Assembly (NCBI RefSeq): GCF_002866925.1
Contig: NZ_PKUQ01000012.1
Location: 1-64,000, forward strand
Origin: Cohaesibacter celericrescens
GTDB taxonomy: Bacteria > Pseudomonadota > Alphaproteobacteria > Rhizobiales > Cohaesibacteraceae
DNA length: 64,000 bases
Direction of reading: 5' to 3'
How positions within the stretch are numbered: the stretch's first letter is position 1; each line of letters begins with the position of its first letter. The notes beneath the pieces were generated by a model. That model worked only from the letters and a program-made list of their open reading frames with translations, was not told where the DNA came from and did not search any database. The translations under genes were made by a program, and so were the position numbers. This document shows, piece by piece, positions 12,961-63,400 of the stretch.

Positions 12961-12969
12961 CTAAATACG

Positions 12970-17219: not shown

Positions 17220-17226
17220 ATGGCGT

Positions 17227-18480: not shown

Positions 18481-18505
18481 CATATCAAACACGGCAGCAG
18501 CAAAG

Positions 18506-19906: not shown

Positions 19907-19917
19907 AATGTCTCTCC

Positions 19918-20550: not shown

Positions 20551-20588
20551 AGCGGGCCTCCATTCAACGGTAATGATACAGAAAAAAG

Positions 20589-20617: not shown

Positions 20618-20627
20618 TGAAGCAGCG

Positions 20628-21638: not shown

Positions 21639-21730
21639 GGATATTCCTCCCGAGATGCATGCAATAGTTTATAGCTGTTCCAACCATTGATGATCCTGTG
21701 CGCTTTGACTATGAGGAAAATTGCGCAAGC

Positions 21731-21772
21731 AGCAGACCCTGCCCTGCGGAAATCCGCAGGGCAGGGTCTGCT
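21731..21772. repeat. Perfect 20-base inverted repeat upstream of dctP
   Basis: The arm at 21731-21750 (AGCAGACCCTGCCCTGCGGA) is exactly complementary to 21753-21772 with only two bases between. It lies between the MarR-GNAT stop (21866) and the dctP start (21638), both on the minus strand. It may end the MarR-GNAT transcript or be a regulatory palindrome of dctP. No U-tract follows on the minus strand. Confidence 0.8.
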
Positions 21773-21865
21773 GAAAATCGGGTGCAAAACCGCCGGTTAG
21801 CGACAGGCAGGCTAAACTATTGTAGGCTTTTTATGGTCCCGATGAGCGGTATCGGATAAGTACCA

Positions 21866-22837: not shown

Positions 22838-22960
22838 AGTTGCATGCTACAACTAATTATTCTACCCGTCAAATGAATCGCGCACTATGCTCACATCGGC
22901 CTAGATGCAATGTGTGTTGGAACTGCTATTTTCGACACTCGACCAGTAACGACTTGGGGG

Positions 22961-26112: not shown

Positions 26113-26340
26113 TTAACCAGACAAGGACGCTGGCAAAAGCCATCAGCATAAGGGCTTCAGTTTGGTGCAGACATTTTAAATCCCCACAAGTGACACCGAA
26201 TAGTGCGCAACTGTAAATCAGACTTATTGCCCCCATTGCCGTTTTGATTATCATTGATAACAACAAAGTAAGTGATACTATGGAGGGGCAAAATTGGGGT
26301 ATTGGTTCGATCCCCCACTCTGCTGGGGGGGAGACAGCCG
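26113..26340. promoter_or_regulatory. Divergent promoter region dctB / fdsG with a ribosome-binding-site hairpin
   Basis: This 228-base region serves the minus-strand dctBD and the plus-strand formate dehydrogenase operon. It contains the palindrome TTATCATTGATAA (26248-26260). A hairpin with arms CCCCCA (26312-26317) and TGGGGG (26324-26329) overlaps the fdsG ribosome binding site, which ends in GGGAG near 26333. The pairing could limit fdsG translation. Confidence 0.5.
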
Positions 26341-26814
26341 ATGACCATTGCCACCAAGCAAAAAACTGACGAAATTAGCTCGATCATATCGCATCATCTG
26401 CATTTGGAAGGGCCACTGCTGCCGATTTTACACGCCCTGCAAGATGCCTTTGGTTACATTCCGGCCTCAGCAGAATCCCCCATCACAGATGCACTCAACA
26501 TTACCAAAGCCGAATTGCACGGCGTCCTTAGTTTTTATCATGATTTCACGCGGCGCCCTGTCGGTGCACATGTGATCAAAATCTGTCAAGCCGAGGCTTG
26601 TCAGGCTGTTGGAGCCAAGGCATTGGCGCAATCAGCGCTTGAACGACTGGGCAAAGGCTGGAACGAGACCACCGACAATGGAGCGGTGACCATCGCGCCT
26701 GTTTATTGCCTCGGCATGTGTGCATGTGGGCCTGCCGTGATTGTCGATGACACCGTGATTGGACGCATGAATGAGACGCGCCTGCACAAACTGCTTGAGG
26801 AGGCGGGCGCATGA
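26341..26814 (+). CDS. fdsG: NAD-dependent formate dehydrogenase gamma subunit (NuoE-like)
   Basis: A 157-residue subunit of the soluble molybdenum formate dehydrogenase, related to NuoE of complex I. Four cysteines bind a [2Fe-2S] cluster: ICQAEACQ (two) and YCLGMCACGP (two). The start at 26341 has a strong GGGGGGAG ribosome binding site, partly buried in a hairpin. It overlaps fdsB by four bases (ATGA). It is the first gene of the fdsGBA-fdhD-fdsD operon and helps pass electrons from formate to NAD. Confidence 0.92.
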   Translation: MTIATKQKTDEISSIISHHLHLEGPLLPILHALQDAFGYIPASAESPITDALNITKAELHGVLSFYHDFTRRPVGAHVIKICQAEACQAVGAKALAQSALERLGKGWNETTDNGAVTIAPVYCLGMCACGPAVIVDDTVIGRMNETRLHKLLEEAGA

Positions 26815-28328
26815 AAATTTACGTTCCACTCGACAGTATGGCCAAAGCTTTGGGCGCAGAGGAAGTGACCCACGCCATTGTCAAAGAAGCGTGTCGGCAG
26901 GGCCACAAAATTGAAATCATCCGCACGGGAACGCGAGGCATGGCATGGCTTGAGCCGCTGGTTGAGATTGACCGCGGCGACGGGCGGGTGGGCTATGGCG
27001 CTGTTACACCAGATCAGGTTTCGGCGATGCTTGACGGATCCCTTGAAAGCCTCGGAAGAGTTGAAGATATTCCTTTTCTGGCACGCCAAACAAGGCTCAC
27101 ATTTGCCCGTTGCGGTGTCATTGACCCATTGAATCTGGCTGACTATGAGGCCCATGGCGGTCTGGTCGGGCTGAAGCGTGCCATTGCCATGAGTGCCGCT
27201 GACATCGTCGAGCAAGTCAAACAATCCGGCCTACGCGGACGCGGCGGAGCGGGCTTTCCCACGGGCGTCAAATGGGACACCGTGCGCCAAGCTCAGGCAG
27301 AGCGCAAATATATCGTTTGTAACGCCGATGAAGGCGACAGCGGAACCTTCGCCGATCGGATGATCATAGAAGGTGACCCCTTTAGCGTCATTGAGGGCAT
27401 GGCCATTGCCGGACTGGCAACCGGCGCCACCCATGGTTTTGTCTATATCCGGTCCGAATATCCCGATGCGATCAAGATCATGAGTGCGGCGGTCGATCTC
27501 GCGCGGATCAACCGTATTTTGGGCACCAACGTGCTTGGCTCGGGCAAGGCATTTGATATGGAAGTGCGCGTTGGGGCTGGCGCTTATATTTGTGGCGAAG
27601 AAACCTCAATGCTGAATAGCCTTGAAGGCAACCCCGGTGTGGTGCGTGCCAAACCACCCCTGCCCGCTCTGCAAGGCTTCATGGGAAAGCCGACCGTGGT
27701 CAACAATGTGATCAGCCTTGCCACCGTACCGGTGATTTTTGAAAAAGGCGCCGCGCATCACGCCAGTTTTGGTGTTGGCCGGTCGCGCGGCACGGTCACA
27801 TTGCAGCTCGCTGGTAACGTTAAATACGGCGGACTGTTCGAGACCGCTTTTGGCATCACGTTGGGCGAAACGGTCATGGACATCGGCGGCGGCACACGCA
27901 ATGGACGCCCTATCAAGGCAGTGCAGGTTGGTGGCCCGCTTGGCTCCTACTTGCCCGTTGAAAAATTCGACACGCCCATCGGCTATGAGGAGCTGGGTGC
28001 AGAGGGTGGCCTCATGGGCCATGCCGGATTGGTGGTCTTTGATGATACCACCAATATGTTGGAAATGGCCCGCTTCGCCATGCAATTTTGCGCCATAGAA
28101 AGCTGCGGAAAATGTACACCTTGCCGCGTCGGCTCGGTACGCGGAGTGGAAACCATCGATCGCATCGCAGCGGGGGACCACGAAGCGCCTGCGCTGTTGA
28201 GTGACCTATGCGAGCTGATGCATGACAGCTCGCTCTGCGCATTGGGTGGCTTTATCTATCATCCGGTTATGTCGGCATTTGAGCATTTCCCCGATGACTT
28301 CTCGACCACCAAGGAGGCTGCAGAATGA
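26811..28328 (+). CDS. fdsB: NAD-dependent formate dehydrogenase beta subunit (NuoF-like)
   Basis: A 505-residue diaphorase subunit that binds FMN and NAD and reduces NAD with electrons from the formate site. An N-terminal thioredoxin-like part (1-110) is followed by the NuoF-like domain with the FMN/NAD motif RGRGGAGFPTGVKW (142-155), the second nucleotide motif GAGAYICGEETSML and the [4Fe-4S] cysteines ESCGKCTPCRVG (C432, C435, C438) plus one further down. It is coupled by ATGA overlaps to fdsG before it and fdsA after it. Length and motifs are normal for FdsB. Confidence 0.94.
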   Translation: MKIYVPLDSMAKALGAEEVTHAIVKEACRQGHKIEIIRTGTRGMAWLEPLVEIDRGDGRVGYGAVTPDQVSAMLDGSLESLGRVEDIPFLARQTRLTFARCGVIDPLNLADYEAHGGLVGLKRAIAMSAADIVEQVKQSGLRGRGGAGFPTGVKWDTVRQAQAERKYIVCNADEGDSGTFADRMIIEGDPFSVIEGMAIAGLATGATHGFVYIRSEYPDAIKIMSAAVDLARINRILGTNVLGSGKAFDMEVRVGAGAYICGEETSMLNSLEGNPGVVRAKPPLPALQGFMGKPTVVNNVISLATVPVIFEKGAAHHASFGVGRSRGTVTLQLAGNVKYGGLFETAFGITLGETVMDIGGGTRNGRPIKAVQVGGPLGSYLPVEKFDTPIGYEELGAEGGLMGHAGLVVFDDTTNMLEMARFAMQFCAIESCGKCTPCRVGSVRGVETIDRIAAGDHEAPALLSDLCELMHDSSLCALGGFIYHPVMSAFEHFPDDFSTTKEAAE

Positions 28329-31222
28329 CATCCCTCAGCACCATCCATGATGATCGCGATTTTGGCACACCTGAACGGCAAGGCGCTCCAATCACGGTGA
28401 CGATTGATGGCTTTGACGTGACCGTTCCCGATGGCACCAGCGTCATGCGGGCGGCGAGCCATCTCGATATTGACATCCCCAAGTTATGCGCCACCGACAG
28501 TTTGGAAGCCTTTGGGTCATGCCGCCTTTGTGTTGTCGAGATTGAAGGTCGCAAAGGCACCCCCTCGTCTTGCACCACACCCGTTGCCCAAGGCATGGTG
28601 ATCAAAACCCAAAGTGAGCATGTGCGAAAAATCCGCAAAGGTGTGATGGAGCTGTATATCTCGGACCATCCGCTCGATTGCCTGACATGCAGCGCCAATG
28701 GCGATTGTGAATTGCAAGATATGGCGGGCGCTGTGGGCCTGCGCGATGTGCGCTACAAGGCGCCTGATCAGAGTACAATCGCCAACCATTTCACCGCACG
28801 GAACAATACAGGCGAGGCCAACAGGCTTTGGACGGCCAAAGACGACAGCAATCCCTATTTTAGTTACGACCCCAGCAAATGCATTGTATGCAGCCGTTGC
28901 GTGCGGGCTTGCGAGGAGGTGCAAGGCACCTTTGCGCTAACCATCGAGGGGCGCGGATTTGATAGTCGGGTCAGCGCAGGAACGGCTCTGGACAGTTTTC
29001 TCAGCTCTGACTGCGTGAGCTGTGGCGCGTGTGTTCAGGCCTGCCCTACCGCAACGTTGCAAGAAAAATCAGTGATAGAGCTGGGTACGCCGCAACGCTC
29101 TGTCGTCACCACTTGCGCCTATTGCGGGGTTGGCTGTTCCTTCAAGGCCGAGTTGAATGGCGATCAAATGGTCCGCATGGTGCCGTATAAAAACGGCAAA
29201 GCCAATCGTGGCCATTCCTGTGTTAAAGGCCGGTTTGCCTATGGCTATGCCCAACACAAGGATCGCATCCTCAAGCCGATGATCCGCGATCACATTGATG
29301 AACCCTGGCGTGAGGTCAGCTGGGACGAGGCGCTCGGGTTTGCGGCGCGAAAGATGCGCGGACTGCAAAAAACTTACGGCCCAAAGTCCATTGGCGTGAT
29401 CACGTCCAGCCGCTGCACCAATGAAGAGACCTTCCTTGTGCAGAAGCTGGCGCGCGCGGTTTTTGGCAACAACAACACCGATACTTGCGCCCGCGTTTGC
29501 CACTCGCCCACCGGTTATGGCTTGGGCCAGACCTTTGGCACCTCTGCAGGCACACAAGATTTTGACAGCGTAGAACAGACCGACGTGGCCATCGTCATCG
29601 GAGCCAACCCGACCGACGGGCATCCGGTGTTTGCCAGCCGCCTCAAAAAGCGGTTGCGTGCGGGTGCAAAGCTGATCGTCATTGATCCGCGCCGGATTGA
29701 CCTTGTCAAATCCGCCCATATCAAAGCATCACACCATCTCGCTCTGCGTCCCGGAACCAACGTGGCACTGGTCTCTGCCATGACCCATGTGATTATTACC
29801 GAGGGCATGGTCAATGAGGCGTTCATTCGCGCCAAATGTGATTGGGACGAATATTGCCAGTATGCCGACTTCATCAGCGATGCCCGTCACAGCCCCGAAC
29901 AGACAGAGGCATTAACGGGTGTGCCAGCAAAAGAGGTCCGTTTGGCAGCACGGCTCTATGCCACAGGCGGCAAAGGCTCGATCTATTACGGTTTGGGCGT
30001 GACCGAGCATAGCCAAGGCTCTACCACCGTTATGGGTATAGCCAATCTTGCCATGCTGACCGGAAATATCGGGAGCGATGGCGTGGGTGTGAACCCATTG
30101 CGCGGGCAAAACAATGTTCAGGGCGCTTGCGATATGGGCAGTTTTCCGCATGAATTGCCCGGCTATCGCCATGTCAAAGGCAAAGAGGCGCGACAGATTT
30201 TTGAAGATGCCTGGGGTGTCGATATTGATCCGGAACCGGGTCTTAGGATCCCCAATATGCTGGACGCGGCTGTTGATGGCAGCTTCAAGGGGCTCTATTG
30301 TCAGGGAGAAGACATTCTGCAGTCGGACCCTGACACCAAGCATGTAGCGGCGGGTCTGGCCGCGATGGAGTGCGTGATTGTGCATGACCTGTTTCTCAAT
30401 GAAACCGCCAACTACGCCCATGTTTTCTTGCCCGGATCGAGTTTTTTGGAAAAAGATGGCACCTTCACCAATGCAGAGCGACGGATCAATCGCGTTCGTG
30501 AAGTGATGAAGCCGCTGAATGGCTATGCCGACTGGCAGGTGACCCAATTGTTGGCCAATGCTATGGGCGCACAATGGTCCTACAAGCATCCCTCTGAAAT
30601 CATGGCCGAGATTGCGGCAACTACGCCATCCTTTGCAAATGTCACCTATGATCTTTTGGAGGAAATGGGGTCAATCCAGTGGCCTTGCAACGACGCCTAT
30701 CCGGAAGGTTCGCCGATTATGCATGTGGATGGATTTGTGCGTGGCAAAGGCCGGTTTATTGTCACAGAATATGTGGCAACGGATGAGAAAACCGGCCCTC
30801 GTTTTCCACTTTTGCTAACCACAGGGCGGATTTTAAGCCAGTATAATGTCGGAGCCCAGACCAGACGCACACAGAATGTTGTGTGGCACGAAGAGGATCG
30901 GCTGGAGATACACCCCCACGACGCAGAGGTGCGCGGGGTTAAGGATGGGGATTGGGTCAGGCTGGCCAGTCGATCTGGCGGCACGTCCTTGCGTGCGACC
31001 ATAACGGATCGTGTCAGCCCCGGCGTTGTTTACACCACCTTTCATCACCCCGACACACAGGCCAATGTGGTGACCACTGATTTCTCCGATTGGGCGACCA
31101 ACTGTCCTGAATATAAGGTGACAGCGGTGCAGGTTAGCCCATCCAACGGTCCGACTGAATGGCAAGACGATTATGCGGCCCAAGCCACACGTGCGCGCCG
31201 CATTGCGCCAGCTGCGGAGTGA
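28325..31222 (+). CDS. fdsA: NAD-dependent formate dehydrogenase catalytic alpha subunit
   Basis: A 965-residue catalytic subunit oxidising formate to CO2 at a bis-molybdopterin molybdenum centre. In order: a [2Fe-2S] domain (C55, C66, C69, C83), a NuoG-like [4Fe-4S] motif HPLDCLTCSANGDCE (C119, C122, C128), two ferredoxin-type [4Fe-4S] motifs (C186-C196 and C230-C240), the [4Fe-4S] motif CAYCGVGC (264-271), and the molybdopterin domains. The molybdenum ligand is Cys392 in ARVCHSPT, so it is a cysteine and not a selenocysteine enzyme. It overlaps fdsB by four bases. All cofactor residues are present, so the enzyme should be functional. Confidence 0.95.
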   Translation: MTSLSTIHDDRDFGTPERQGAPITVTIDGFDVTVPDGTSVMRAASHLDIDIPKLCATDSLEAFGSCRLCVVEIEGRKGTPSSCTTPVAQGMVIKTQSEHVRKIRKGVMELYISDHPLDCLTCSANGDCELQDMAGAVGLRDVRYKAPDQSTIANHFTARNNTGEANRLWTAKDDSNPYFSYDPSKCIVCSRCVRACEEVQGTFALTIEGRGFDSRVSAGTALDSFLSSDCVSCGACVQACPTATLQEKSVIELGTPQRSVVTTCAYCGVGCSFKAELNGDQMVRMVPYKNGKANRGHSCVKGRFAYGYAQHKDRILKPMIRDHIDEPWREVSWDEALGFAARKMRGLQKTYGPKSIGVITSSRCTNEETFLVQKLARAVFGNNNTDTCARVCHSPTGYGLGQTFGTSAGTQDFDSVEQTDVAIVIGANPTDGHPVFASRLKKRLRAGAKLIVIDPRRIDLVKSAHIKASHHLALRPGTNVALVSAMTHVIITEGMVNEAFIRAKCDWDEYCQYADFISDARHSPEQTEALTGVPAKEVRLAARLYATGGKGSIYYGLGVTEHSQGSTTVMGIANLAMLTGNIGSDGVGVNPLRGQNNVQGACDMGSFPHELPGYRHVKGKEARQIFEDAWGVDIDPEPGLRIPNMLDAAVDGSFKGLYCQGEDILQSDPDTKHVAAGLAAMECVIVHDLFLNETANYAHVFLPGSSFLEKDGTFTNAERRINRVREVMKPLNGYADWQVTQLLANAMGAQWSYKHPSEIMAEIAATTPSFANVTYDLLEEMGSIQWPCNDAYPEGSPIMHVDGFVRGKGRFIVTEYVATDEKTGPRFPLLLTTGRILSQYNVGAQTRRTQNVVWHEEDRLEIHPHDAEVRGVKDGDWVRLASRSGGTSLRATITDRVSPGVVYTTFHHPDTQANVVTTDFSDWATNCPEYKVTAVQVSPSNGPTEWQDDYAAQATRARRIAPAAE

Positions 31223-52144: not shown

Positions 52145-52930
52145 TCAGTCTGCAATGATGACTTCGATGCCACGGTCTTCGAAACGCTTTTTATCGGCGT
52201 CTGACAGACCGGAATCGATGATCAGGCTATGGACAAGCTCAATCCCGCCCAAGGACGCGAAGGACACTTCGCCGAGTTTGCTGGAGTCAGCGACCAGATA
52301 GATATGGGCTGCAGAATTGATCATCGCAGATTTGACATGCAAATCATTAAAGCCCGGATAGGTTAGGCCAGCCTCAAAGGAAAGCCCTCCCACGGCCAAG
52401 AACAGTTTCTGGGCAAACATATTCTCAAAGAAAGCCCCCGCCTTTTCGCCAGAGAGCGATAGGGTTGGTGCTTTGAATTCACCGCCGGTGACATGAATTG
52501 AATGGGATGGCTCCTGTCCCATGATAAACACAATATTCAACGCATTGGTCATCACTTTTAGCCGGCGCTTTTCGCCCAAGTGATTGGCTATCATGGTTGT
52601 TGTTGAGCCGGCATCGAGGATGATGGTATCACCATCCTCGATCAGTTCAGCAGCTTTGCGCCCAATGGCTTCTTTCTTGTCCAAGTGGTCAAGATGATGC
52701 AAGGCCAGCTGTTGAACCTGTTTCGGCATGGATTTGGAGAAAGCACCGCCATGCTCGCGAACGATATGGCCTTCTGCTTCTAGTTTCTCCAAATCCTGTC
52801 GTATGGTTGGTTCAGAAACATGAAACATCTCGCTCAATTTGGCGACACGCGCACTGCCTTCTTCCATCAAAAGATCGAGGATTTTTTTGCGCCGAGTTTC
52901 GCCGAGCAGAGGCTTCTTATCTTGTTTCAT
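52145..52930 (-). CDS. DeoR-family transcriptional repressor of the second sugar module
   Basis: A 261-residue repressor. The N-terminal DeoR helix-turn-helix is in VAKLSEMFHVSEPTIRQDLE (about 24-43). The C-terminal sugar-phosphate sensing domain has GDTIILDAGSTTTMIANHL and LFLAVGGLSFEAGLTYPG. DeoR proteins respond to phosphorylated sugars, which fits the ketose-phosphate expected from the module's kinase. It is the last gene of the minus-strand operon, 5 bases after the isomerase. Its likely binding sites are the TTCG repeats at 58810-58957 in the divergent promoter. Confidence 0.9.
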   Translation of the reverse strand: MKQDKKPLLGETRRKKILDLLMEEGSARVAKLSEMFHVSEPTIRQDLEKLEAEGHIVREHGGAFSKSMPKQVQQLALHHLDHLDKKEAIGRKAAELIEDGDTIILDAGSTTTMIANHLGEKRRLKVMTNALNIVFIMGQEPSHSIHVTGGEFKAPTLSLSGEKAGAFFENMFAQKLFLAVGGLSFEAGLTYPGFNDLHVKSAMINSAAHIYLVADSSKLGEVSFASLGGIELVHSLIIDSGLSDADKKRFEDRGIEVIIAD

Positions 52931-52935
52931 GCTTC

Positions 52936-54369
52936 CTATTCATCCAAGCCATGATGATACAAATCCCATTTCAAGTATTTTGAAATGGCTTCATCGACGA
53001 CATTTGCAACATCACCGCGCACCATAGCAACATGATGCTCGAATCCATTTGCGCAAATGTGTTTCAGCAGCTTACGTAGCTTAGTTACATGGCAAACTGC
53101 AATACCCCCGTCCATACCAAATGGGTCATCGGTGAATTCTCCTTTGCCGACATAGGTACGAATTGTGCCTTTGGCATCATCGGTAGACAGGCGGAAGTAG
53201 GTCATTGGGCCCGGAGCAACTTTTCCTTTGATGGCACCAAAGCATGAATCTTCTTCAAGAACAGTGCCCAAAACATCCAAATTGCCGATTTCGACTTCGC
53301 TTCCCATAAAGCTCTTTGGATAATTGGAGCAATGAGTGCAGACGCATTTGTCCGGATCACTGGCGTAATTGTTATTCCAATCCAGCAGCCCCGATGGTGT
53401 ACCGGCGGCGAGCGTCAATGCATACATGGAAATGGCACCAGCAACATCCACTTCACATGCACTCGGCATCAGGTCTTCGCCCATCATCGACATAGTTGCG
53501 CATGTGGCGCAACCATAATTATCCTGAATGGATGTCCAGCACTGAATAGCGCTTGCGTCGCATTCATTTTCTTCCATCCAACGGTTCACGACCGTGGTAA
53601 ACTTGGCTTGTCGAAGGACCTTTTCTTTGGCAATGCACGGGGCAATTTTGCCGTAGTCCTGCAATTCTTCGAGCCTTTGCTGAACCGCCGCATCGTCGTC
53701 TTTAAGACGTTGTGCTCCGAAAATCATTTCCGACAAGTCACAAGTGACCACAGTGATGCCGCTGGCTTGCAGCAGCTTCTCACTGTATCGAACGGTCTGG
53801 AATGCGCCGGTACGAGCCCCTATCGAACCAATGCGAGCATTGGACAGGCCGCGAACAGTGCGGCAGGTGGCAGCAAAATTCTGCAGGTCATGTTTAAATT
53901 CCTGCCCATCGATATCGCTGGTGTGCGACGTGGTGTCAGTGAACGGAATGCCATATTGGTAGAAATTGTTGGTGACTGAAATCTTGCCACAAAACGCATC
54001 GCGGCGGCTGCGAACATCAACTTTTTCGACATCGTCATTGCAGGCCTGCACGAGGACAGGCACGTTGAGACCGGCACCATGGATGGTTTCGACAATGCCG
54101 ATTTCATCGCCAAAGTTTGGCAAAATAACAACTATACCGTCAATTTCTTCACGCTGTTCCTTGAACAGTTTGGCATATTTGAAGGCATCAGCGCGGGTTT
54201 CAACCGCGCCAAAAGGAGTGGCATCGAGCGGGAGTATAACTGAGCCAAAGCCCAGTTCATCCATCAATTTCATGAGCTGCTTGCGGGCATCAATGGCCAT
54301 TTCGCCATTGAAGATATTGCGTGTGCCAACAACCAGTCCTAGTGTTGTCCGTTTTTCTGTGGTCCTCAT
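52936..54369 (-). CDS. L-fucose/arabinose-isomerase-fold sugar isomerase
   Basis: A 477-residue enzyme of the FucI/AraA-like superfamily, which interconverts aldoses and ketoses with a bound divalent metal. The expected metal ligands are present: Glu306 in SACEVDVAGA, Asp330 in LLDWNNNY, and a His pair at 445-446 in GFEHHVAMVRGD. A Cys cluster, CVCTHC (342-347), follows the active-site Asp and is also seen in uncharacterised members. The start at 54369 has an AAGGGG ribosome binding site; 26 upstream residues are rejected. It lies between the ABC permease, 10 bases away, and the DeoR gene. Fucose itself is unlikely, as no fuculose pathway is near. Confidence 0.82.
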   Translation of the reverse strand: MRTTEKRTTLGLVVGTRNIFNGEMAIDARKQLMKLMDELGFGSVILPLDATPFGAVETRADAFKYAKLFKEQREEIDGIVVILPNFGDEIGIVETIHGAGLNVPVLVQACNDDVEKVDVRSRRDAFCGKISVTNNFYQYGIPFTDTTSHTSDIDGQEFKHDLQNFAATCRTVRGLSNARIGSIGARTGAFQTVRYSEKLLQASGITVVTCDLSEMIFGAQRLKDDDAAVQQRLEELQDYGKIAPCIAKEKVLRQAKFTTVVNRWMEENECDASAIQCWTSIQDNYGCATCATMSMMGEDLMPSACEVDVAGAISMYALTLAAGTPSGLLDWNNNYASDPDKCVCTHCSNYPKSFMGSEVEIGNLDVLGTVLEEDSCFGAIKGKVAPGPMTYFRLSTDDAKGTIRTYVGKGEFTDDPFGMDGGIAVCHVTKLRKLLKHICANGFEHHVAMVRGDVANVVDEAISKYLKWDLYHHGLDE

Positions 54370-54379
54370 AGCGGGCCCC

Positions 54380-55444
54380 TTACTGTTCCTGATTTTGCTG
54401 CAAGGCAGCTTTACGCTGCAAGTCGCGTTGAATTTGGTCGATAACAACAGCGCCGACGATCACCACGCCTTTAATGACCATTTGCCAGAAGGAGCTCACA
54501 CCCATCATGACAAGTCCATCAGACAGGATACCGATCACAAAAGCACCGATGATGGTGCCGCCAATCCGGCCACGGCCACCTGCCATGGATGTGCCACCCA
54601 AGACGGCAGCGGCAATGGCGTTCAGCTCGAACATGTTACCTGTCGCGGGATGAGATGCGACCAATTGCGAGGCTACGATCAAACCGGCAATCGCTGCACA
54701 AAAGCCGGAGAACATATAGACAAACATTTTGGTGCGATTGACTTTAATTCCCGACAGGCGCGCAGCAACTTCGTTGCCACCAACCGCGTAAATATGCCGC
54801 CCAAGTGGGGTATGGCGCGACAGATATGCAGCACCAAGAGCAAGGAAGGTGAGCACAACAATCGACACCGGAATGCCCGCAATGCTGCCAGCACCCAACC
54901 ATGGAAAGCCGGTATTCCCCAATTCGGGAGTGCCCTCCAGATTGGGGAAGGTTTTACCGCCTGAAGACAACAAAGCCATACCACGAGCTACATACAGCAT
55001 ACCCAAAGTCGCGATGAAGGGGGCGACATTCAGCCTGGTTATCAAAAAACCGTTCACAGACCCGATAACAACGCCCAAAAAGAGGGTGATGATGACGATT
55101 TCTGGAATGTTAAAATAAAGCGTGTATCCGAGAAAGTCGAGCGGCAAACCATGCAGGATCAAGGCACCGGCAACCATGCCAGCAAGTCCAACGATGGAGC
55201 CGACGGATAGATCAATACCGCCTGTAATGATAACGAAAGTCATGCCCACGGCCAGAAAGGCGTTGATGGCCACGTGCTTGGACATGATCATCAGGTTGGC
55301 GACCGATAGGAAATTGGGCACAAGGACCGCAAAGAAGGCAATTACGACAATCAGTGCGATGAAAGTTCTCAATTTGAGCAAAAGCATGCCGATTGGGAGA
55401 GAGGATTGCTTTTTGACTTCTGGGGTAGATGCGACGGAAACCAT
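54380..55444 (-). CDS. Ribose-type ABC transporter permease, second sugar module
   Basis: A 354-residue membrane subunit of a monosaccharide importer of the RbsC type, with eight to ten hydrophobic segments. It has AVGMTFVIITGGIDLSVGS near residue 72 and the typical GVVIVGAVVIDQIQRDLQRK end. The ATG at 55444 has a GGGGG ribosome binding site; 60 residues upstream in the frame are outside the family length. It follows the ATPase gene by 13 bases. Its N-terminal stretch of about 20 polar residues before the first helix is longer than in RbsC. Confidence 0.9.
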   Translation of the reverse strand: MVSVASTPEVKKQSSLPIGMLLLKLRTFIALIVVIAFFAVLVPNFLSVANLMIMSKHVAINAFLAVGMTFVIITGGIDLSVGSIVGLAGMVAGALILHGLPLDFLGYTLYFNIPEIVIITLFLGVVIGSVNGFLITRLNVAPFIATLGMLYVARGMALLSSGGKTFPNLEGTPELGNTGFPWLGAGSIAGIPVSIVVLTFLALGAAYLSRHTPLGRHIYAVGGNEVAARLSGIKVNRTKMFVYMFSGFCAAIAGLIVASQLVASHPATGNMFELNAIAAAVLGGTSMAGGRGRIGGTIIGAFVIGILSDGLVMMGVSSFWQMVIKGVVIVGAVVIDQIQRDLQRKAALQQNQEQ

Positions 55445-55457
55445 TGGAATCCCCCTT

Positions 55458-57002
55458 TTAAACTCTGTTGCTTTGTTCAGAGGCACGATGGCCAATAGCG
55501 GAGGCAGCGACGAGTGCTTCTTCAGCAGCATCATTGCGTTCGAACCGTCCTGTGACCTGTCCGTTGGACATGACAATAATACGGTCAGACATGGATTTAA
55601 TTTCATCCAGATCCGAGCTGACAAAGATGATTGCGAGGCCTTTGGCGGCGAGATCGGTCATGATCTGGAAGACTTCAGCCTTGGCACCGACATCGATGCC
55701 CCGCGTTGGTTCATCCATAAGCAGGACCTTGGGCGATGTCAGAAGAGCCTTACCGATGACAACCTTTTGCTGGTTGCCTCCGCTCAATGAACTGACTTCA
55801 TTGTCCGGAGAAGCCACCTTGATCGACATTTCACCGATTTTGGTTTGAATGGCTTCTTTTTCTGCACCTTCATTGATGACAAATTTGGCCTTGAGGAACT
55901 TCCACAGGCTCGACATGGTCATATTTTCCGCCACAGAAAGGATCTGCACCAAGCCTTCACGCTGTCTATCCTCGGGTATCAACGCCAGCCCATGCCGAAT
56001 GCGATCGCCCACATCACCAGAGATTGCTTCGCCATCCAACCACACATTCCCCGTGCTTTCTGGATAGAGCCCCATCAGACAGTCGAACATTTCCGAGCGC
56101 CCTGCCCCCATCAAGCCATAAACACCAACGATTTCGCCGGCACGTACAGAAAGATCAACATGGTCCACGGTGTATCCACCGCCTTGTCTGGGTAAAGTCA
56201 GACCCTCAATTTTTATGACTTCATCGCCATAATCCACCAGATCATTCAGCTCGACGGTCTTTTTGACACCACCAACCATTTTGTCGATGATCCAAGGCAC
56301 ATCAATGTCTTTGACCGCCGCTTCGGCGGCCATTTTTCCATCGCGCAGGATGGAAATATAGTCACCAATGCGCACAAGTTCTTCGAGGCGATGGGAAATG
56401 TAAATTATAGACACATCTCGCGCTTTGAGCTCTTCGATGATGCGGAACAGAATTTCTACCTCTGCAGACGACAATGCCGAAGTCGGCTCGTCCATGATCA
56501 AGACATTGACATCCTTGGTCAGGGCTTTGGCGATTTCGACAATCTGTTGCAGGCCGATGCGTAAATCGGCAACTTCGGCTTTAGGATCGATGGTCTGTTC
56601 CAAACGCGTCATCATTTTTGCTGCGCGCGCTATTTGCTCCGCATGATCGATCTTCATGCCGGGCTTGGTGATTTCCTGCGCCATAAACATGTTTTCAGCA
56701 ACTGAGAGGTTGGGAAACAGGTTCAACTCTTGGAAAATGATACCAATGCCCTTGTCTTCAGCATCACGGGTGGAGTTAAAACTCACTTCTTCACCCGATG
56801 CCAAAAAGATCTTGCCTTGGGATTGTTTTTGAACCCCTGCAAGCACTTTCATCAAGGTGGATTTGCCGGCACCATTTTCGCCGACCAATACATTCACCTT
56901 GCCACGATAGACCTTGTAATCCACATCATCGAGCGCCTTGGTGCCCGGAAACACCATACTGATGCCTTCTGTGCGGAGAATGACGTCATCTTCCTTGGTC
57001 AT
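55458..57002 (-). CDS. Ribose-type ABC transporter ATP-binding protein, second sugar module
   Basis: A 514-residue protein with two fused ABC ATPase domains. The first has Walker A GENGAGKSTL (41-50), Walker B VLIMDEPTSALS and a signature region around IGLQQIVEIAKAL. The second has GLMGAGRSEMF, SSLSGGNQQKVVIGKALL and VLLMDEPTRGIDVG. The start at 57002 lies one base after the stop of the DUF2291 gene and has GGAGG inside that gene's last codons, so translation is coupled. Normal for the RbsA family. Confidence 0.92.
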   Translation of the reverse strand: MTKEDDVILRTEGISMVFPGTKALDDVDYKVYRGKVNVLVGENGAGKSTLMKVLAGVQKQSQGKIFLASGEEVSFNSTRDAEDKGIGIIFQELNLFPNLSVAENMFMAQEITKPGMKIDHAEQIARAAKMMTRLEQTIDPKAEVADLRIGLQQIVEIAKALTKDVNVLIMDEPTSALSSAEVEILFRIIEELKARDVSIIYISHRLEELVRIGDYISILRDGKMAAEAAVKDIDVPWIIDKMVGGVKKTVELNDLVDYGDEVIKIEGLTLPRQGGGYTVDHVDLSVRAGEIVGVYGLMGAGRSEMFDCLMGLYPESTGNVWLDGEAISGDVGDRIRHGLALIPEDRQREGLVQILSVAENMTMSSLWKFLKAKFVINEGAEKEAIQTKIGEMSIKVASPDNEVSSLSGGNQQKVVIGKALLTSPKVLLMDEPTRGIDVGAKAEVFQIMTDLAAKGLAIIFVSSDLDEIKSMSDRIIVMSNGQVTGRFERNDAAEEALVAASAIGHRASEQSNRV

Positions 57003-57003
57003 A

Positions 57004-57690
57004 TCAGCCTCCATCGCCCACTGTCAGGCGAACGGGTGTGACAAGCACGGGCTTGCTGGCACCGTCATCGGTGAACATGCCGGTGAAGCTCACTTCTTTG
57101 CCGTCCAGCGCTTCGCGATCCAAACCGGAAAGCACATCGGCATTCACCCGCTTGTTTATGGCGTTGGAAATGCGGGCATATTCAAGCTGATTGGTAAAGT
57201 CATCAAATTTCAGGAAATCGAGGCTGTCGCGAATTGATGAGCCCTTAAGAACCGGACCAATTTGAAGTAACATGTCTTTGGTGCCATCGTAGGGAGGCAG
57301 ATCGAGGCCCAAAGTCGATGCGCGCGACTTGGTGTTAACTTCGACGATCTTTGCAGTGCCTTTGACTATAAAGTTCCAGGGGCTGCCTTCTTCTTTTTCG
57401 CGATGGCCGTATTTCTTGCCAGCTTCAGCAGCGTTACTTTTGTAGGCGCCAACAACTTCACCCAGGTCATTGGCTGCACTATCCGCGAACGGCAGGAGCT
57501 TGTCGCTCCACATGTCTGCAACAATTTTGTCTGGATTGAATTTGTCGTCAGAGAAAAAGATCTCCAACTCGCCCTCTGCTTTTTTGCGTGGTGGTTCGTT
57601 TTTGACAATCTTACATGCGCTCAGTGAGAGCGCGATTCCGATAGCTGCAGTCAGAGTAGCTGCATGACGGAGAGCTGTCTGGTTGTTCAT
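57004..57690 (-). CDS. DUF2291 family lipoprotein
   Basis: A 228-residue exported protein. The N-terminus (MNNQTALRHAATLTAAIG...) ends in the lipobox LSAC with Cys26 as the lipidation site, so it is anchored on the periplasmic side. The mature part matches DUF2291 by its pattern SDKLLPFADSAANDLGEVV and VTPVRLTVGDGG. DUF2291 genes are often found next to ribose-type ABC transporters, and their function is unknown. The start at 57690 has GGAAGG. It follows the binding-protein gene beyond a terminator hairpin and precedes the ATPase by one base. A part in ligand delivery or transporter stability is a guess. Confidence 0.8.
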   Translation of the reverse strand: MNNQTALRHAATLTAAIGIALSLSACKIVKNEPPRKKAEGELEIFFSDDKFNPDKIVADMWSDKLLPFADSAANDLGEVVGAYKSNAAEAGKKYGHREKEEGSPWNFIVKGTAKIVEVNTKSRASTLGLDLPPYDGTKDMLLQIGPVLKGSSIRDSLDFLKFDDFTNQLEYARISNAINKRVNADVLSGLDREALDGKEVSFTGMFTDDGASKPVLVTPVRLTVGDGG

Positions 57691-57717
57691 CCCGGTGCCT
57701 TCCAAACTCAACCTTAT

Positions 57718-57745
57718 AAAAAGACGGGGCAATGGGGGCCCCGCC
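57718..57745 (-). terminator. Attenuator-like terminator after the second ribose-type binding-protein gene
   Basis: On the minus strand GGCGGGGC pairs with GCCCCGTC (seven Watson-Crick pairs plus a G-U) around a 7-base loop, followed by TTTTT (57718-57722). It lies in the gap between the binding protein and the DUF2291 gene, so only some transcripts should pass. Confidence 0.8.
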
Positions 57746-57789
57746 CTCTAGAAGTGTTATCTAGATTCTGGTCTAGACTTTGGCTCTCA

Positions 57790-58752
<963 letters not shown>

Positions 58753-58809
58753 CTACCTATGAAAACTAGATTTACTTTCATTTTGCTTCTAGAGCCACGT
58801 TAGACACAC

Positions 58810-58957
58810 TTTTCGAAAACGGTCAAGAATTATCAAAAATATTCGAAACTTTTTTTGCCAAAAACCCATAAAATATACACAATAGCTCCAACAATTCGAA
58901 AATAATACGGTATCAATTTTCGTTTTCTTGTGTTTCTTATTGATTACTTTCGTTTTC
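58810..58957. promoter_or_regulatory. Divergent promoter with TTCG repeat array, probable DeoR operators
   Basis: Five elements share TTCG: TTTTCGAAAA (58810-58819), ATTCGAA (58841-58847), AATTCGAAAA (58893-58902), TTTCGTTTTC (58918-58927) and TTTCGTTTTC (58948-58957). The CG centres are 30, 53, 24 and 30 bases apart. Repeated TTTCG-type sites are typical of DeoR-family repressors of the alphaproteobacteria. The region separates the binding-protein operon from the transketolase operon, so one repressor could close both. Confidence 0.65.
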
Positions 58958-59002
58958 ATTGATAGCCTGCCAACAGGTCGTTTCACAAAGACGGATTCTC
59001 TT

Positions 59003-59815
59003 ATGGACATCTCCGAGTTAGAACAAAAAGCACGCGAAGTTCGAAAACGGATTATTCGCATGAACAGCGCAGCAGGTCAGGGCCATACAGGTGGAGACCT
59101 ATCCGAAACAGACATTTTGGTTGCGCTCTACTTTCGCATTCTCAGGCAAATAGACCCCACCAGAACCAATCCTGATCGGGACCGCTTCATCCTTTCAAAA
59201 GGGCATGGGGTTGGCGGATATTATTGCACGTTGGCCGAGGCTGGCTATCTGGAGGATGAAGACCTCACCACATATCTGGGCTTTGAAACCCGATGCCCCG
59301 GCCACCCGGTACGCCAGAAAACACCTTGCATTGAGCTGAACACTGGCGCTCTGGGGCACGGAGTACCCGTGTCTGTTGGCATGGCTCTTAGCGCGAAAAG
59401 ACAGCAAAAAGACTTCCGGGTCTATGTTTTGACTGGAGACGGCGAACTGCAAGAAGGCTCCAACTGGGAAGCTGCTCTTAGCGCTCAACAATATTGTCTG
59501 GACAATTTGGTTGTCATCGTTGACCGCAACCGTTTGCAGCTTGCCGACCGGACCGAAAACATCATCGGGCTTGAGCCACTGGCCGATAAATGGCGCGCTT
59601 TCGGGTTTGACGTTCAAGAAACCCAAGGCAACGACATGGGAAGCGTCGTTTCGACACTGGAAGGCTTGGACTTCACCTGTGGTTGCCCTCATGTGGTTAT
59701 CGCCAACACCACCAAAGGTGCCGGCATTTCCTTTATTGAAGACCGCCCCGCTTGGCATCACCGCGTGCCCAAAGGCGATGAAGTGGCGCTTGCGATCGCG
59801 GAGCTGGAGGCATGA
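59003..59815 (+). CDS. Transketolase N-terminal (thiamine-diphosphate binding) subunit
   Basis: A 270-residue protein corresponding to the first third of a transketolase. It has the catalytic His region GQGHTGGDLSETDILVALYF, and the thiamine-diphosphate motif GDGELQEGSNWEA followed at the usual spacing by VVIVDRNRL. Splitting of the gene into two subunits is common in sugar catabolic operons, for instance AptA/AptB of the D-apiose pathway. The start at 59003 follows the family N-terminus. It overlaps the second subunit gene by four bases, so the two are made together. It acts on a ketose phosphate in the cytoplasm. Confidence 0.88.
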   Translation: MDISELEQKAREVRKRIIRMNSAAGQGHTGGDLSETDILVALYFRILRQIDPTRTNPDRDRFILSKGHGVGGYYCTLAEAGYLEDEDLTTYLGFETRCPGHPVRQKTPCIELNTGALGHGVPVSVGMALSAKRQQKDFRVYVLTGDGELQEGSNWEAALSAQQYCLDNLVVIVDRNRLQLADRTENIIGLEPLADKWRAFGFDVQETQGNDMGSVVSTLEGLDFTCGCPHVVIANTTKGAGISFIEDRPAWHHRVPKGDEVALAIAELEA

Positions 59816-60759
59816 ATTCCATGACTGTTGTAAAACAAGATTTGCGCGAGGTGATGATTGAATCCTTTCATCGCGCAGTTGCTCACGGCGTCAATCTGGT
59901 GACAGTGGTTAGTGATTCAACCAGCACCGCCAAAATCGCTCCGTTCCAAAGCGCCAACCCCGAACGTGTGGTCAATGTCGGTATTGCCGAGCAAAGTCTG
60001 GTTGGTATTGCTGCTGGTTTGTCACTGGGTGGACATGTTGCTGTCACCGCCAATGCAGCGCCGTTTTTAATCGCCCGCTCCAACGAGCAGATCAAAAATG
60101 ACATTTGTTACTCCAATACCAATGTCAAGCTGGTCGGGCTGAATGCAGGTGTCGCGTATGGTGCGCTTGGCGCCACCCATCATGCGATTGATGATATTTC
60201 GGTGCTGCGCGGCTTTGGCAATATCCAGATTTTTGCCCCTACCGATGCCATTGAGGCCGCCCAGATCTTTGATTATGCCTATGCCCATGAAGGGCCGGTC
60301 TATATCCGCCTCGATTCGGCTGCCTTTCCCCATTTGCACAGCCCAGACTATGTGTTTGAAGTAGGTAAGCCCGACTTGCTGATTGAGGGCAGCGATATTC
60401 TTATTGTGGCATTAGGATCTGTCGCCCATGAAGCGGTGGATGCCGCAAAAGCTGCTGCCGAAACAGGTCTGTCGGTTGGTGTGGTCAGCCTTTCGAGCAT
60501 TCGTCCGCTTGATAAAGAAGCCTATGTCGATATTCTCAAACGCTACAAGCAAGTATTAAGCGTTGAAGAGCATTCGGTGCATGGCGCATTGGGCAGCCTC
60601 ACCGCGGAAGTGATCGCCGAAGAACAGCTTGGGCTGAAGCTTACACGGCTCGGTTTCCCAGAAGGGCAGTTTTCCAAAACCGGTCCACGCGATGCGATCC
60701 GTGCCTATTATAAGATCGATGCCAAAGGCATCACAGAAACACTTAAGACACTAGGATAA
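59812..60759 (+). CDS. Transketolase C-terminal (pyrimidine-binding) subunit
   Basis: A 315-residue protein with the pyrimidine-binding and C-terminal transketolase domains. NVGIAEQSLVGIAAGLSLGG contains the catalytic Glu that activates thiamine diphosphate. The C-terminal domain has SIRPLDKEAYVDILKRY and VEEHSVHGALGSL. The ATG at 59812 overlaps the previous stop and has GGAGG; a second ATG three codons on is possible. It ends four bases before the kinase gene. With the N-terminal subunit it makes a complete enzyme, probably an apulose-4-phosphate or xylulose-5-phosphate-type transketolase. Confidence 0.88.
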   Translation: MNSMTVVKQDLREVMIESFHRAVAHGVNLVTVVSDSTSTAKIAPFQSANPERVVNVGIAEQSLVGIAAGLSLGGHVAVTANAAPFLIARSNEQIKNDICYSNTNVKLVGLNAGVAYGALGATHHAIDDISVLRGFGNIQIFAPTDAIEAAQIFDYAYAHEGPVYIRLDSAAFPHLHSPDYVFEVGKPDLLIEGSDILIVALGSVAHEAVDAAKAAAETGLSVGVVSLSSIRPLDKEAYVDILKRYKQVLSVEEHSVHGALGSLTAEVIAEEQLGLKLTRLGFPEGQFSKTGPRDAIRAYYKIDAKGITETLKTLG

Positions 60760-60763
60760 TGGC

Positions 60764-62242
60764 ATGACCGGTCTCATCCTCTCCATTGACCAAGGAACCA
60801 GCGGCACCAAAGCAATCCTGTTTGATCGCGATGGGCAGCCGCAGGCAAAGGGCAGCGTTGCACTGGCATCGATTTTCCCGCAGGCCGGATTTGTAGAGCA
60901 AGACCCCGATGACATCTACAACAACGTCATCGATGCGGTTCGGGATTGTTTTGAGGTGTTTGGCTCAACGCCCCAGATCTCGGCCTGTGGTATTTCCAAC
61001 CAGCGCGAAACCTTTGTGCTCTGGGACAGTGAGGGAAAACCGCTGAACAATGCTGTGGTTTGGCAATGCAAACGCTCATCCCAGGTGTGCGAGCGTCTAA
61101 AGGGAACCAATTTGGAAGCCGATATTCGGCGCAAAACGGGCCTGATTGTCGACCCCTATTTTTCCGGCAGCAAGGTTATCTGGCTGAAGGAAAACAATGC
61201 GGACATCGCTGCCAGGATAGAGGCTGGCGAGGCCTATTTTGGAACCATCGACACGTGGCTGGTCTATCGCCTCACTGGTGGTAAAAGCTACGCCACCGAT
61301 GTGACCAATGCATGCCGCACTTTATTCTTCAATCTCAAGGATTTGTGTTGGGATAAAGACTTGCTGGAACAAATGGGCCTATCAAAGCTCAACTTGCCCA
61401 GCCTTAATCCATCCTCTTGCAATGTTGGTGAAACCGATATCGGCGGACTATTGGATCAACCCATCCCGATCACCGGTTTGATCGGAGATTCCCATGCGGC
61501 CGCATTCGGTGAAGGTTGTCATCAAAGTGGACAAGCAAAAGCAACGCTGGGCACGGGTTCTTCGATCCTTATGAATACAGGCGACACCCCTGCGAAGCCG
61601 CAAAATGGTATGGTTTCAACCATATGCTGGGCGATCGAGGGTCGCGTAGATTATGCACTTGAAGGCATTATTGTTTCTTGCGGAGCCACCATCCAATGGC
61701 TACGCGACCAAGCTGCCTTGGTTTCTGATGCGGCCCAAACTGAGGCAATGGCGCGAGCTGTGCCTAACAATGGCGGCGTTTATTTCATTCCAGCCTTTTC
61801 CGGACTTGGTGCGCCCTATTGGAAGATGGATGCAAAAGCGATGATTGCGGGCCTGACTTTTGGCTCTACAAAGAATCATATCGCGCGTGCCGCACTTGAA
61901 TCCGTGGCGTTCCAAATCAAAGACGTCATCAATGCCATGAAAGAAGCGAGTGGCGTAGAACTCGGCATGTTGAACGCGGACGGCGGCATGACCAAGAATC
62001 AATTTGTTATGCAATCGTTGGCAGACTTGCTTGGCTGTTCGGTACAAACGATCGATTTTGAGGATATTTCTGCTTTGGGCGCGGCCTACATGGCAGGGCT
62101 GGGAGCCGGAGTTTATGCCGATATCTCAGAGCTCCCTAGCCATAATGAAGGGCGCTCATTGCGCGTGCCAGATCTCGATGCAAAGGACATTGTTGCTTGT
62201 CATCAAACCTGGCAAGACATCATCCACAAAGTTTATTGCTAA
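60764..62242 (+). CDS. FGGY-family carbohydrate kinase, GlpK-like
   Basis: A 492-residue kinase with the FGGY fold. The phosphate-binding DQGTSGTKAILFDRDG (7-22) and ISNQRETFVLWDSEGKPLNN resemble glycerol kinase, as do AVVWQCKRS and the C-terminal LNADGGMTKNQFVMQSLADL. The family phosphorylates glycerol and several ketoses. In this operon, after an isomerase and with a split transketolase, a ketose kinase role is more likely than glycerol. Without glpD or glpF next to it a glycerol role has no support. The gene follows the transketolase by four bases and ends in a strong terminator. Confidence 0.85.
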   Translation: MTGLILSIDQGTSGTKAILFDRDGQPQAKGSVALASIFPQAGFVEQDPDDIYNNVIDAVRDCFEVFGSTPQISACGISNQRETFVLWDSEGKPLNNAVVWQCKRSSQVCERLKGTNLEADIRRKTGLIVDPYFSGSKVIWLKENNADIAARIEAGEAYFGTIDTWLVYRLTGGKSYATDVTNACRTLFFNLKDLCWDKDLLEQMGLSKLNLPSLNPSSCNVGETDIGGLLDQPIPITGLIGDSHAAAFGEGCHQSGQAKATLGTGSSILMNTGDTPAKPQNGMVSTICWAIEGRVDYALEGIIVSCGATIQWLRDQAALVSDAAQTEAMARAVPNNGGVYFIPAFSGLGAPYWKMDAKAMIAGLTFGSTKNHIARAALESVAFQIKDVINAMKEASGVELGMLNADGGMTKNQFVMQSLADLLGCSVQTIDFEDISALGAAYMAGLGAGVYADISELPSHNEGRSLRVPDLDAKDIVACHQTWQDIIHKVYC

Positions 62243-62336
62243 GACTTCGCTTCGCTCAAACCGAATAACCTAAGCAACCTACCCGTAGATTCCACCTAAG
62301 ACAGCTAGAAGGGTCCCCTCCTACCCCTTCAGATAG

Positions 62337-62370
62337 GCCGACGCAATCAACAAGTGCGTCGGCTTTTTTT
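62337..62370 (+). terminator. Intrinsic terminator of the transketolase-kinase operon
   Basis: GCCGACGCA (62337-62345) pairs perfectly with TGCGTCGGC (62355-62363) around a 9-base loop and is followed by seven T (62364-62370). It lies 95 bases past the kinase stop, before the convergent LacI gene. Confidence 0.92.
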
Positions 62371-62389
62371 ATTTCTCGCGAGACTTCAC

Positions 62390-63400
62390 TTAACCGAGGG
62401 GGGCACAAGAATCGCGTTCTATGAGCAAGCAAGGCTCTGGATTGAATAACTCCGGAGTGGATGCGTGGCTCATTACGGCTATAATCGCTCGTTTGCCCAT
62501 TTCAAAATAGGGCAACCCGACCGTCGTTAATCGTGGTCGGACCACCTCGGAAATTGCCTGAAAGTCATCAAAACCGATAACAGACAAGTCTTCAGGCACA
62601 CGCAGTCCCATATGGGCAGCAGCACTCATTACCATCAAAGCAATGCGGTCATTGCCGCAAATAATGGCGGTGGGGCGATCTGGCCTGTCCAAAAGGGTTT
62701 TGGCGCTTTCATAGGCCACATAGGTCTCCCCCTCAGGCAGATATCCTTCAACTCCAGCACAACACAGATCCGGATCCAAGGCCATACCGTGGGCCGAAAG
62801 TGCACGATTGGCACCTGTCAGACGCAGGTTGGTTGCCGGTGCGCGCTCGGGCAACGAGATTACACCAATCCGAGTATGCCCCAGCTTGACCAAATAGGCG
62901 GCCTGCTCATACCCACCGGCCTCATCGTCCGGCAGAATTGCCCTGTCTGTGCAGCCTTGGGCAAAACAGTTCGCATATACAACATTCTTAACATCAGAGG
63001 AAATCCGATCGACCTCTTGATGAAAAAGGCTGGCATAAACAACGCCTGCTGTGTGACTATCACGAAACATTTGCCAAATATCGCTGCGGTTTTTCTCGGC
63101 ATCATCCAACGAACCGATCAACAAGAGACAGCCCAATTCCGAGGCCGCGGCTTGAGCGCCACGCAACAGGTCAAAGGAATGGGGAAACATGGTTTCCCTG
63201 TCCGCAAAAAAACCAATAAGCGGAGTGCCCTTGCCCAGGCTCATCTGTGCCGACCGACGAGGCACATACCCGGTTCGCTCAGCCACTTTTAGAATTTGCA
63301 GGGTCGTCTCTTCGCTAGCACACTTTTTCCCGCGCAAAGTCAGAGACACTGTTTTACTCGACACTCCGACTTCGTTTGCGATATCCAATAAAGTGGGCAT
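62390..63400 (-). CDS. LacI-family transcriptional regulator
   Basis: A 336-residue repressor. The N-terminal helix-turn-helix is LLDIANEVGVSSKTVSLTLR (3-22) and the sensor domain begins near residue 60 (IGFFADRETMFPHSFDLLRG). It is convergent with the kinase operon and divergent from frmA. No palindrome like that of the first LacI module is visible around it. It may add a second control to the sugar module or regulate a gene elsewhere; the regulated gene cannot be told. The recognition helix differs from that of the first LacI protein, so they bind different sites. Confidence 0.9.
   Translation of the reverse strand: MPTLLDIANEVGVSSKTVSLTLRGKKCASEETTLQILKVAERTGYVPRRSAQMSLGKGTPLIGFFADRETMFPHSFDLLRGAQAAASELGCLLLIGSLDDAEKNRSDIWQMFRDSHTAGVVYASLFHQEVDRISSDVKNVVYANCFAQGCTDRAILPDDEAGGYEQAAYLVKLGHTRIGVISLPERAPATNLRLTGANRALSAHGMALDPDLCCAGVEGYLPEGETYVAYESAKTLLDRPDRPTAIICGNDRIALMVMSAAAHMGLRVPEDLSVIGFDDFQAISEVVRPRLTTVGLPYFEMGKRAIIAVMSHASTPELFNPEPCLLIERDSCAPLG

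Follow-up and report, generated by a model that had tools for sequence, protein, structure and literature searches.

A predicted D-apiose import and transketolase-route cluster with a separate lineage of FGGY kinase in Cohaesibacter celericrescens

Which sugar is handled by the two divergent operons at 52145-62242 of the first 64,000 nucleotides of Cohaesibacter celericrescens contig NZ_PKUQ01000012.1 (assembly GCF_002866925.1; this whole 64-kb stretch is hereafter called the window)? A sequence-only reading had noted here a conversion of aldose to ketose to ketose phosphate followed by transfer of a two-carbon unit, likened this logic to the AptA/AptB route for D-apiose, supposed that the substrate might be another branched or unusual sugar, and regarded the locus as the window's most likely place for an undescribed pathway. 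Both the logic and the likeness to the apiose route are supported by our analysis: in all likelihood the cluster imports D-apiose, a branched sugar of plants, and catabolizes it by the transketolase route, as judged from sequence by its gene content, the similarity of its importer and transketolase to those of apiose clusters, its conserved context, residue changes in the kinase and transketolase pockets, and the enrichment of a promoter box. The idea of another sugar or an undescribed pathway found no support, as importer, transketolase and context match the described apiose route, reportedly that of Carter and colleagues (2018, Nat Chem Biol 14:696, as cited in PMC13001218). Since that route is known, the cluster would be a further example of it with a distinct kinase; what it adds is modest, namely a kinase of a separate lineage, an operator predicted for DeoR and a fold match for the DUF2291 lipoprotein.

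All of the genes named in the earlier reading, the DUF2291 lipoprotein included, are open and intact and were identified by family models (the starts of four genes were adjusted by hand). The leftward operon runs from the binding protein through the DUF2291 lipoprotein, the ATP-binding cassette (ABC) ATPase, the permease and the isomerase to DeoR, and the rightward operon from the transketolase N subunit through the C subunit to the FGGY kinase, as follows.

52145-52930, minus strand: DeoR-family regulator (Pfam HTH_DeoR and DeoRC), last gene of the importer/isomerase operon
52936-54369, minus strand: L-fucose-isomerase-type aldose/ketose isomerase, predicted to convert D-apiose to D-apulose (ApsI-type; PF02952, Fucose_iso_C, 102.8 bits)
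54380-55444, minus strand: CUT2 (RbsC-type) ABC permease (PF02653)
55458-57014, minus strand: CUT2 (RbsA-type) ABC ATPase with two ABC domains (PF00005, two stretches)
57004-57690, minus strand: DUF2291 periplasmic lipoprotein of oligonucleotide/oligosaccharide-binding (OB) fold, probable importer accessory (PF10054, 206.8 bits)
57790-58737, minus strand: periplasmic sugar-binding protein, predicted D-apiose binder (505 bits to Rhizobium etli RHE_PF00037)
58738-59002: divergent promoter region between both operons, partly conserved with the same-genus genome G001
58918-58927, plus strand: predicted DeoR box TTTCGTTTTC, copy 1 (motif count and enrichment of the core TTTCGTTT)
58948-58957, plus strand: predicted DeoR box TTTCGTTTTC, copy 2 (same basis as copy 1)
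59003-59815, plus strand: transketolase N-terminal, thiamine diphosphate (ThDP) subunit, AptA-type (PF00456, 125 bits)
59812-60759, plus strand: transketolase C-terminal subunit, AptB-type (PF02779 and PF02780; tree of joined subunits)
60764-62242, plus strand: FGGY kinase of a separate lineage, predicted to act on apulose (GlpK model match, pocket residues, trees)

G001 carries the entire cluster in identical gene order (65-90% identity), so the gene set is not a matter of chance. The LacI gene at 62390-63400 was considered as a further member and set aside: no relative was seen in the G001 counterpart (locus L143, read to ~2.3 kb past the kinase), and its relatives in loci elsewhere are 27-35% identical.

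In the proposed scheme the binding protein, the RbsA/RbsC-type ABC importer and the DUF2291 lipoprotein would bring in D-apiose, the fucose-isomerase-type enzyme would convert it to D-apulose, and the FGGY kinase would form apulose 4-phosphate. The split transketolase would then transfer two carbons from apulose 4-phosphate onto glyceraldehyde 3-phosphate, yielding xylulose 5-phosphate and dihydroxyacetone phosphate (DHAP), and DeoR would control both operons through the TTTCGTTT boxes in the shared promoter. We infer each reaction, the position of the phosphate and regulation by the pathway sugar from the published route. The window shares with that route an importer, an isomerase, an FGGY kinase and a two-subunit transketolase in one cluster; it differs in that its kinase belongs to a separate lineage and its importer is nearer the rhizobial kind.

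The transketolase subunits link the cluster to this route. The N subunit is 62% identical to AptA of Escherichia coli SE15 and the C subunit 56% to AptB, and the window pair groups with the pairs of G001, E. coli (AptAB), Rahnella and Sodalis (Shimodaira-Hasegawa-like approximate likelihood-ratio test, SH-aLRT, 92, inside a nine-row set at 100) in a quick tree of 75 rows of joined subunits, built without bootstrap and with a long-branch warning, one in the nine-row set. In the residue numbering of E. coli transketolase, histidines 26, 66, 100 and 473 are kept in the split enzyme, whereas 71 of 73 split rows have Leu in place of Asp469, and Asn replaces His461 both in the window C subunit and in E. 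coli AptB. A canonical transketolase is ruled out by the two-gene split together with these two replacements, and the altered pocket would suit a donor whose cleaved carbon turns into a ketone (i.e. DHAP). Because the source genome has three full-length transketolases as well as its own GlpK, the transketolase and kinase of the cluster are not housekeeping copies. The source genome has two more split pairs, both on contig C9, which are without the shared LNAG...THHAIDD motif. The first lies within 10000-29000 of that contig (locus L167), side by side with a methylthioribose kinase (442 bits against a cut-off of 275), a CUT2 importer and a RuBisCO-like protein well under the MtnW cut-offs, a set that may represent an unusual methylthioribose route; the further pair lies ~8 kb beyond it among sugar-nucleotide genes.

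The importer points to the same sugar. Among Protein Data Bank (PDB) chains the binding protein best matched RHE_PF00037 of R. etli (5ibq and 4ry0, 505 bits), followed by the ribose-binding protein of Thermotoga maritima (206 bits). 5IBQ is reported to be the complex of RHE_PF00037 with alpha-D-apiose and 4RY0 that with ribose; given the 'probable ribose' name under which the protein was deposited, this serves as a lead rather than a test. The binding protein is 83-84% identical to orthologues from rhizobia and Martelella (79-82% by blastp to those of R. etli CIAT 652 and Martelella), the permease 69% and the ATPase 56-57% identical to the Rhizobium and Martelella counterparts. A binding protein match of 80-90% identity was present in 224 of the 648 plasmid records having any match, and the neighbourhoods of two of these records, from Martelella and R. 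etli CIAT 652, were read. The Martelella importer adjoins the oxidative apiose gene oiaX (its product scoring 782 bits against a cut-off of 700), and that of R. etli CIAT 652 has as neighbours, by annotation, a RuBisCO large subunit, triosephosphate and ribose-phosphate isomerases, an oxidoreductase and a dihydroxyacetone kinase, a set which would fit the oxidative apiose route. These clusters have a nearly identical importer but differ from the window in their OiaX/RuBisCO-like and oxidoreductase neighbours, no such isomerase or transketolase being seen in the stretches read. Since the importer is found in both this and the transketolase context, one importer type seems to serve two different apiose routes. 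Of 14 pocket positions, named after those of ribose-binding protein, 11 are identical in all 43 binding-protein orthologues of at least 65% identity; modelling the binding protein alone gave a poor model (predicted local distance difference test score, pLDDT, 47.9). Taken as a whole, the comparison makes D-apiose very probably the substrate of the cluster.

How far the arrangement is conserved was asked with an isomerase-alignment scan of named genomes, which returned 554 or more relatives. We kept the 80 best of them (59-66% identity) and counted a neighbour as present if it reached an identity of 40% and 35% (transketolase subunits), 35% (kinase), 45% (DeoR), 30% (DUF2291) or 65% (binding protein). 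The transketolase pair was present in 58 of the 80 loci, the pair plus kinase in 55 (and in 40 of the 47 loci of at least 21 kb), and an apiose-type binding protein in 37. Within the genus, five of 18 genomes surveyed have the binding protein (at least 79% identity), and the same five have the isomerase (at least 62%); a sixth has an isomerase of 47% identity, but the 19 kb read there showed neither a transketolase nor the binding protein. In one same-genus locus (L144, genome G012) a transketolase pair, an AplK-type kinase and another importer adjoin the importer/isomerase/DeoR operon, which looks as if the transketolase/kinase half had been exchanged.

Akin to the window, plasmid records of Rahnella, Sodalis and Klebsiella hold importer, DUF2291 lipoprotein, transketolase pair, isomerase and FGGY kinase together, although in another gene order and with another regulator. 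The Rahnella and Sodalis proteins are 46% (isomerase), 59-62% and 55-57% (transketolase subunits), 67-69% (binding protein) and 39% (kinase) identical to those of the window. The apiose cluster of E. coli SE15 (ECSF_RS02670-02715) likewise has AptA (62%), AptB (56%), a binding protein (47%), a kinase (37%) and a DUF2291 protein, but carries two short-chain dehydrogenase/reductase (SDR) oxidoreductases where the window has its isomerase. PMC13001218, the one relevant paper found on this route, describes an Escherichia cluster with aplK, aptA and aptB in which two oxidoreductases replace the isomerase ApsI of Pectobacterium, and reports growth on D-apiose of the three E. coli carriers and one Escherichia fergusonii carrier tested and none of K-12. 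Three further loci of the window's genus (L151, L152 and L153) combine an AplK-type kinase and a transketolase pair with proteins homologous to the two E. coli SDRs (66-69% and 54-57%). Their CUT2 importer is of another sort (binding protein ~30%), and no isomerase of this family is present in the 19 kb read, a make-up that fits the idea in PMC13001218 of an SDR pair replacing the isomerase.

An L-fucose-isomerase fold is suggested for the window isomerase by the Fucose_iso_C match, which covers its C-terminal part; phmmer against PDB chains gave no match. The earlier reading had listed Glu306, Asp330 and His445/446, and with the ATG start at 54369 these residues are indeed present and invariant against three enteric homologues; they are putative active-site residues by comparison with L-fucose isomerase. 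That this type of isomerase would indicate another sugar, as had been supposed, finds no support, same-family isomerases occurring in transketolase clusters of Rahnella, Sodalis and Klebsiella (46% identical) with a related importer. Where isomerase loci without transketolase were sampled, the surroundings vary and include FGGY kinase, RpiA, DRL oxidoreductase and alcohol dehydrogenase genes. Four loci (L029, L038, L076 and L091) encode isomerases 61-63% identical to the window's near distant FGGY kinases, AptAB not being found there; RpiA accompanies the isomerase in L029, and a DRL-type oxidoreductase with an alcohol dehydrogenase does so in L038 and L076. A different fate of apulose is possible in these four loci.

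The remark that the kinase looks like glycerol kinase holds in so far as it passes the GlpK subfamily model (550 against 498 bits). It fails the GlpK equivalog model (549 against 590 bits), on which the genome's own GlpK scores 700 bits. As a pointer to another sugar the resemblance fails, because GlpK is likewise the top-scoring model for E. coli AplK (495 bits) and GlpK-likeness is therefore normal for these kinases. The two positions that correspond to Gln246 and Phe270 of the GlpK glycerol pocket are both Ser in the window group (14 of 14 rows), in the L026/L067 pair (2 of 2) and in the AplK clade (35 of 35 rows examined, from 52 in the clade), whereas GlpK rows keep Gln and Phe (29 of 29). 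Glycerol kinase identity was rejected on these grounds, i.e. the score under the equivalog cut-off, the two Ser replacements and the presence of a separate GlpK. Tyr135 is retained in the window kinase group and replaced by Leu or Met in AplK rows; eight distant FGGY kinases, whose alignment is unsure, have Ser at neither pocket position. The window kinase falls in a 14-row set (SH-aLRT 100) that is made up mostly of planctomycete sequences (nine) and also takes in the G001 counterpart, two Desulfobacterota and one spirochaete, the quick kinase tree holding 92 rows of 108 collected (15 of the 29 GlpK rows and one duplicate of the window kinase were left out). In a 50-row tree a single branch sets off each of the three groups (the window group, AplK and GlpK), with a weak support of 68 for the window group. 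These trees suggest that the kinase is of a lineage separate from AplK.

The DUF2291 lipoprotein passes its Pfam gathering score with a wide distance (206.8 against 22.5 bits), and its structure model matches TM0957 (2f4i), an OB-fold protein of T. maritima; this match was found by fold alone, as phmmer against PDB chains returned chance-level matches only. The gene is present in 36 of the 37 loci carrying an apiose-type binding protein, and its product is a probable accessory of the importer. A literature search on DUF2291 found no papers.

The DeoR protein is the predicted repressor of the cluster; the enteric records read have a 'sugar-binding transcriptional regulator' instead. Relatives of it at or above the 45% limit occur in 46 of the 80 isomerase loci. 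The motif TTTCGTTTTC occurs twice in the window (0.16 copies expected), both times in the divergent promoter, and its core TTTCGTTT gave 29 matches upstream of these operons, in 25 of 52 DeoR-bearing loci, counts that are not to be read as a probability since the window and G001 were the source of the motif, the 52 loci include that of G001, and they are relatives of one another. Among 56 letter permutations of TTTCGTTT the next best gave 8 matches (median 2), and TTTCGTTT itself gave 6 in 39 loci where no DeoR relative was seen.

Might the cluster instead be a second ribose system, with an importer for D-ribose and the other enzymes as loosely attached pentose-phosphate functions? The best NCBIfam model of the binding protein is RbsB (though at 170 bits against a cut-off of 337), plasmid records name its relatives ribose-binding, the depositors of 5ibq and 4ry0 named their protein 'probable ribose', and 5IBQ is called the same in PMC8112048, the one paper found that mentions it. 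Moreover, the pocket of the binding protein resembles the one in ribose-binding protein, so that ribose may be a ligand too, and the binding protein of the E. coli apiose cluster (47% identical) differs at 8 of the 14 pocket positions, so that these positions by themselves do not define apiose binding. These observations weigh against D-apiose as the substrate. However, a ribose route needs no isomerase, FGGY kinase or dedicated transketolase, as is established, and the cluster is without a PfkB kinase (no PfkB ribokinase was found among the ten proteins scanned at 52145-63400). At 6693-12298 the window encodes a module of its own, comprising an RbsR-like LacI protein, a ribokinase-like PfkB kinase (7751-8689; 297 against 299.65 bits), a CUT2 permease, an ATPase and a binding protein 29% identical to the apiose-type one; this module is probably a ribose system, which weakens the case for a cluster acting on ribose only. 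We therefore regard a second ribose system as very improbable.

A route for D-arabinose or another pentose, in which the isomerase would form D-ribulose, the kinase would phosphorylate it and a normal transketolase reaction would follow, has in its favour that L-fucose isomerases can act on D-arabinose, and that genes of the T. maritima ribose operon were predicted to work in this way (PMC3750489). It is scarcely credible here given the changed substrate residues of the transketolase (Asp469 to Leu, His461 to Asn) and its grouping with AptAB, the three full-length transketolases already in the genome, and an importer common to Rhizobium and Martelella clusters without such an isomerase in the stretches read. 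Just as improbable is another branched sugar (hamamelose or another branched pentose), and so is a route of the sulfoquinovose type that uses a split transketolase. The sole NCBIfam match of the isomerase is to the sulfoquinovose isomerase SftI (NF048012), but at 103 bits against a cut-off of 700 the enzyme was not accepted as SftI, and its homologue in Rahnella reaches much the same score (116.5 bits). A ligand of another class is also unlikely for a binding protein so near to the RHE_PF00037 group.

Other points that count against the D-apiose assignment concern the enzymes. The isomerase also sits in other contexts, as 17 of the 80 isomerase loci have neither transketolase nor an apiose-type binding protein (4 of these 17 are among the 47 loci of at least 21 kb, and several are on short contigs). 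The window kinase is just 37-39% identical to enteric kinases, and placing all apiose-cluster kinases in one clade that excludes GlpK is an arrangement neither established nor rejected (approximately unbiased test, p 0.133). Finally, the E. coli cluster whose carriers grew on apiose lacks this isomerase, according to PMC13001218.

The fold match of the DUF2291 lipoprotein leads to T. maritima, whose 'ribose' operon with TM0957 (2f4i) is described as one for ribose and D-arabinose and is likened to the window cluster here by fold and description. Ribose and xylose reportedly induce that operon (PMC3750489). In a control scan an apiosidase-family domain was reported in T. maritima; a literature search on TM0951-TM0956 found nothing relevant. 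As a prediction only, the T. maritima 'D-arabinose enzymes plus transketolase' may be an apiose route. A broader picture, which we offer tentatively and consider rather unlikely, is that of a widespread apiose cassette in which a separate GlpK-like lineage (found in planctomycetes, a spirochaete, two Desulfobacterota and this genus) took up apulose as substrate independently of the AplK group of enteric bacteria and alphaproteobacteria, arriving at the same two pocket changes, with DUF2291/TM0957 as a dedicated fourth component of CUT2 importers and, by extension, the T. maritima operon as an apiose route.

Two loci of the source genome outside the cluster were also observed. On contig C51 (locus L166, 8430-10160) an apiosidase-family (PF13204) protein is encoded in an SBP_bac_1/BPD_transp_1 ABC importer operon with a ROK regulator, and is a possible source of free apiose. 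In the window, a NuoF-like gene adjoins a molybdopterin oxidoreductase gene at 26811-31222, probably encoding an NAD-dependent formate dehydrogenase.

Our analysis predicts the substrate of a module whose parts are labelled separately by automatic annotation, as 'ribose transporter', 'fucose isomerase', 'glycerol kinase' and 'transketolase'. When such genes are annotated, the Ser positions of the kinase and the motif of the transketolase can help in telling these enzymes apart from GlpK and from housekeeping transketolase. The fold match of the DUF2291 lipoprotein and its presence in nearly all loci with the apiose-type binding protein make the role of this 'domain of unknown function' testable. 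As apiose is a constituent of rhamnogalacturonan II in plants and is also present in aquatic monocots (PMC6302742, PMC11747546), the cluster marks bacteria that may use such plant material.

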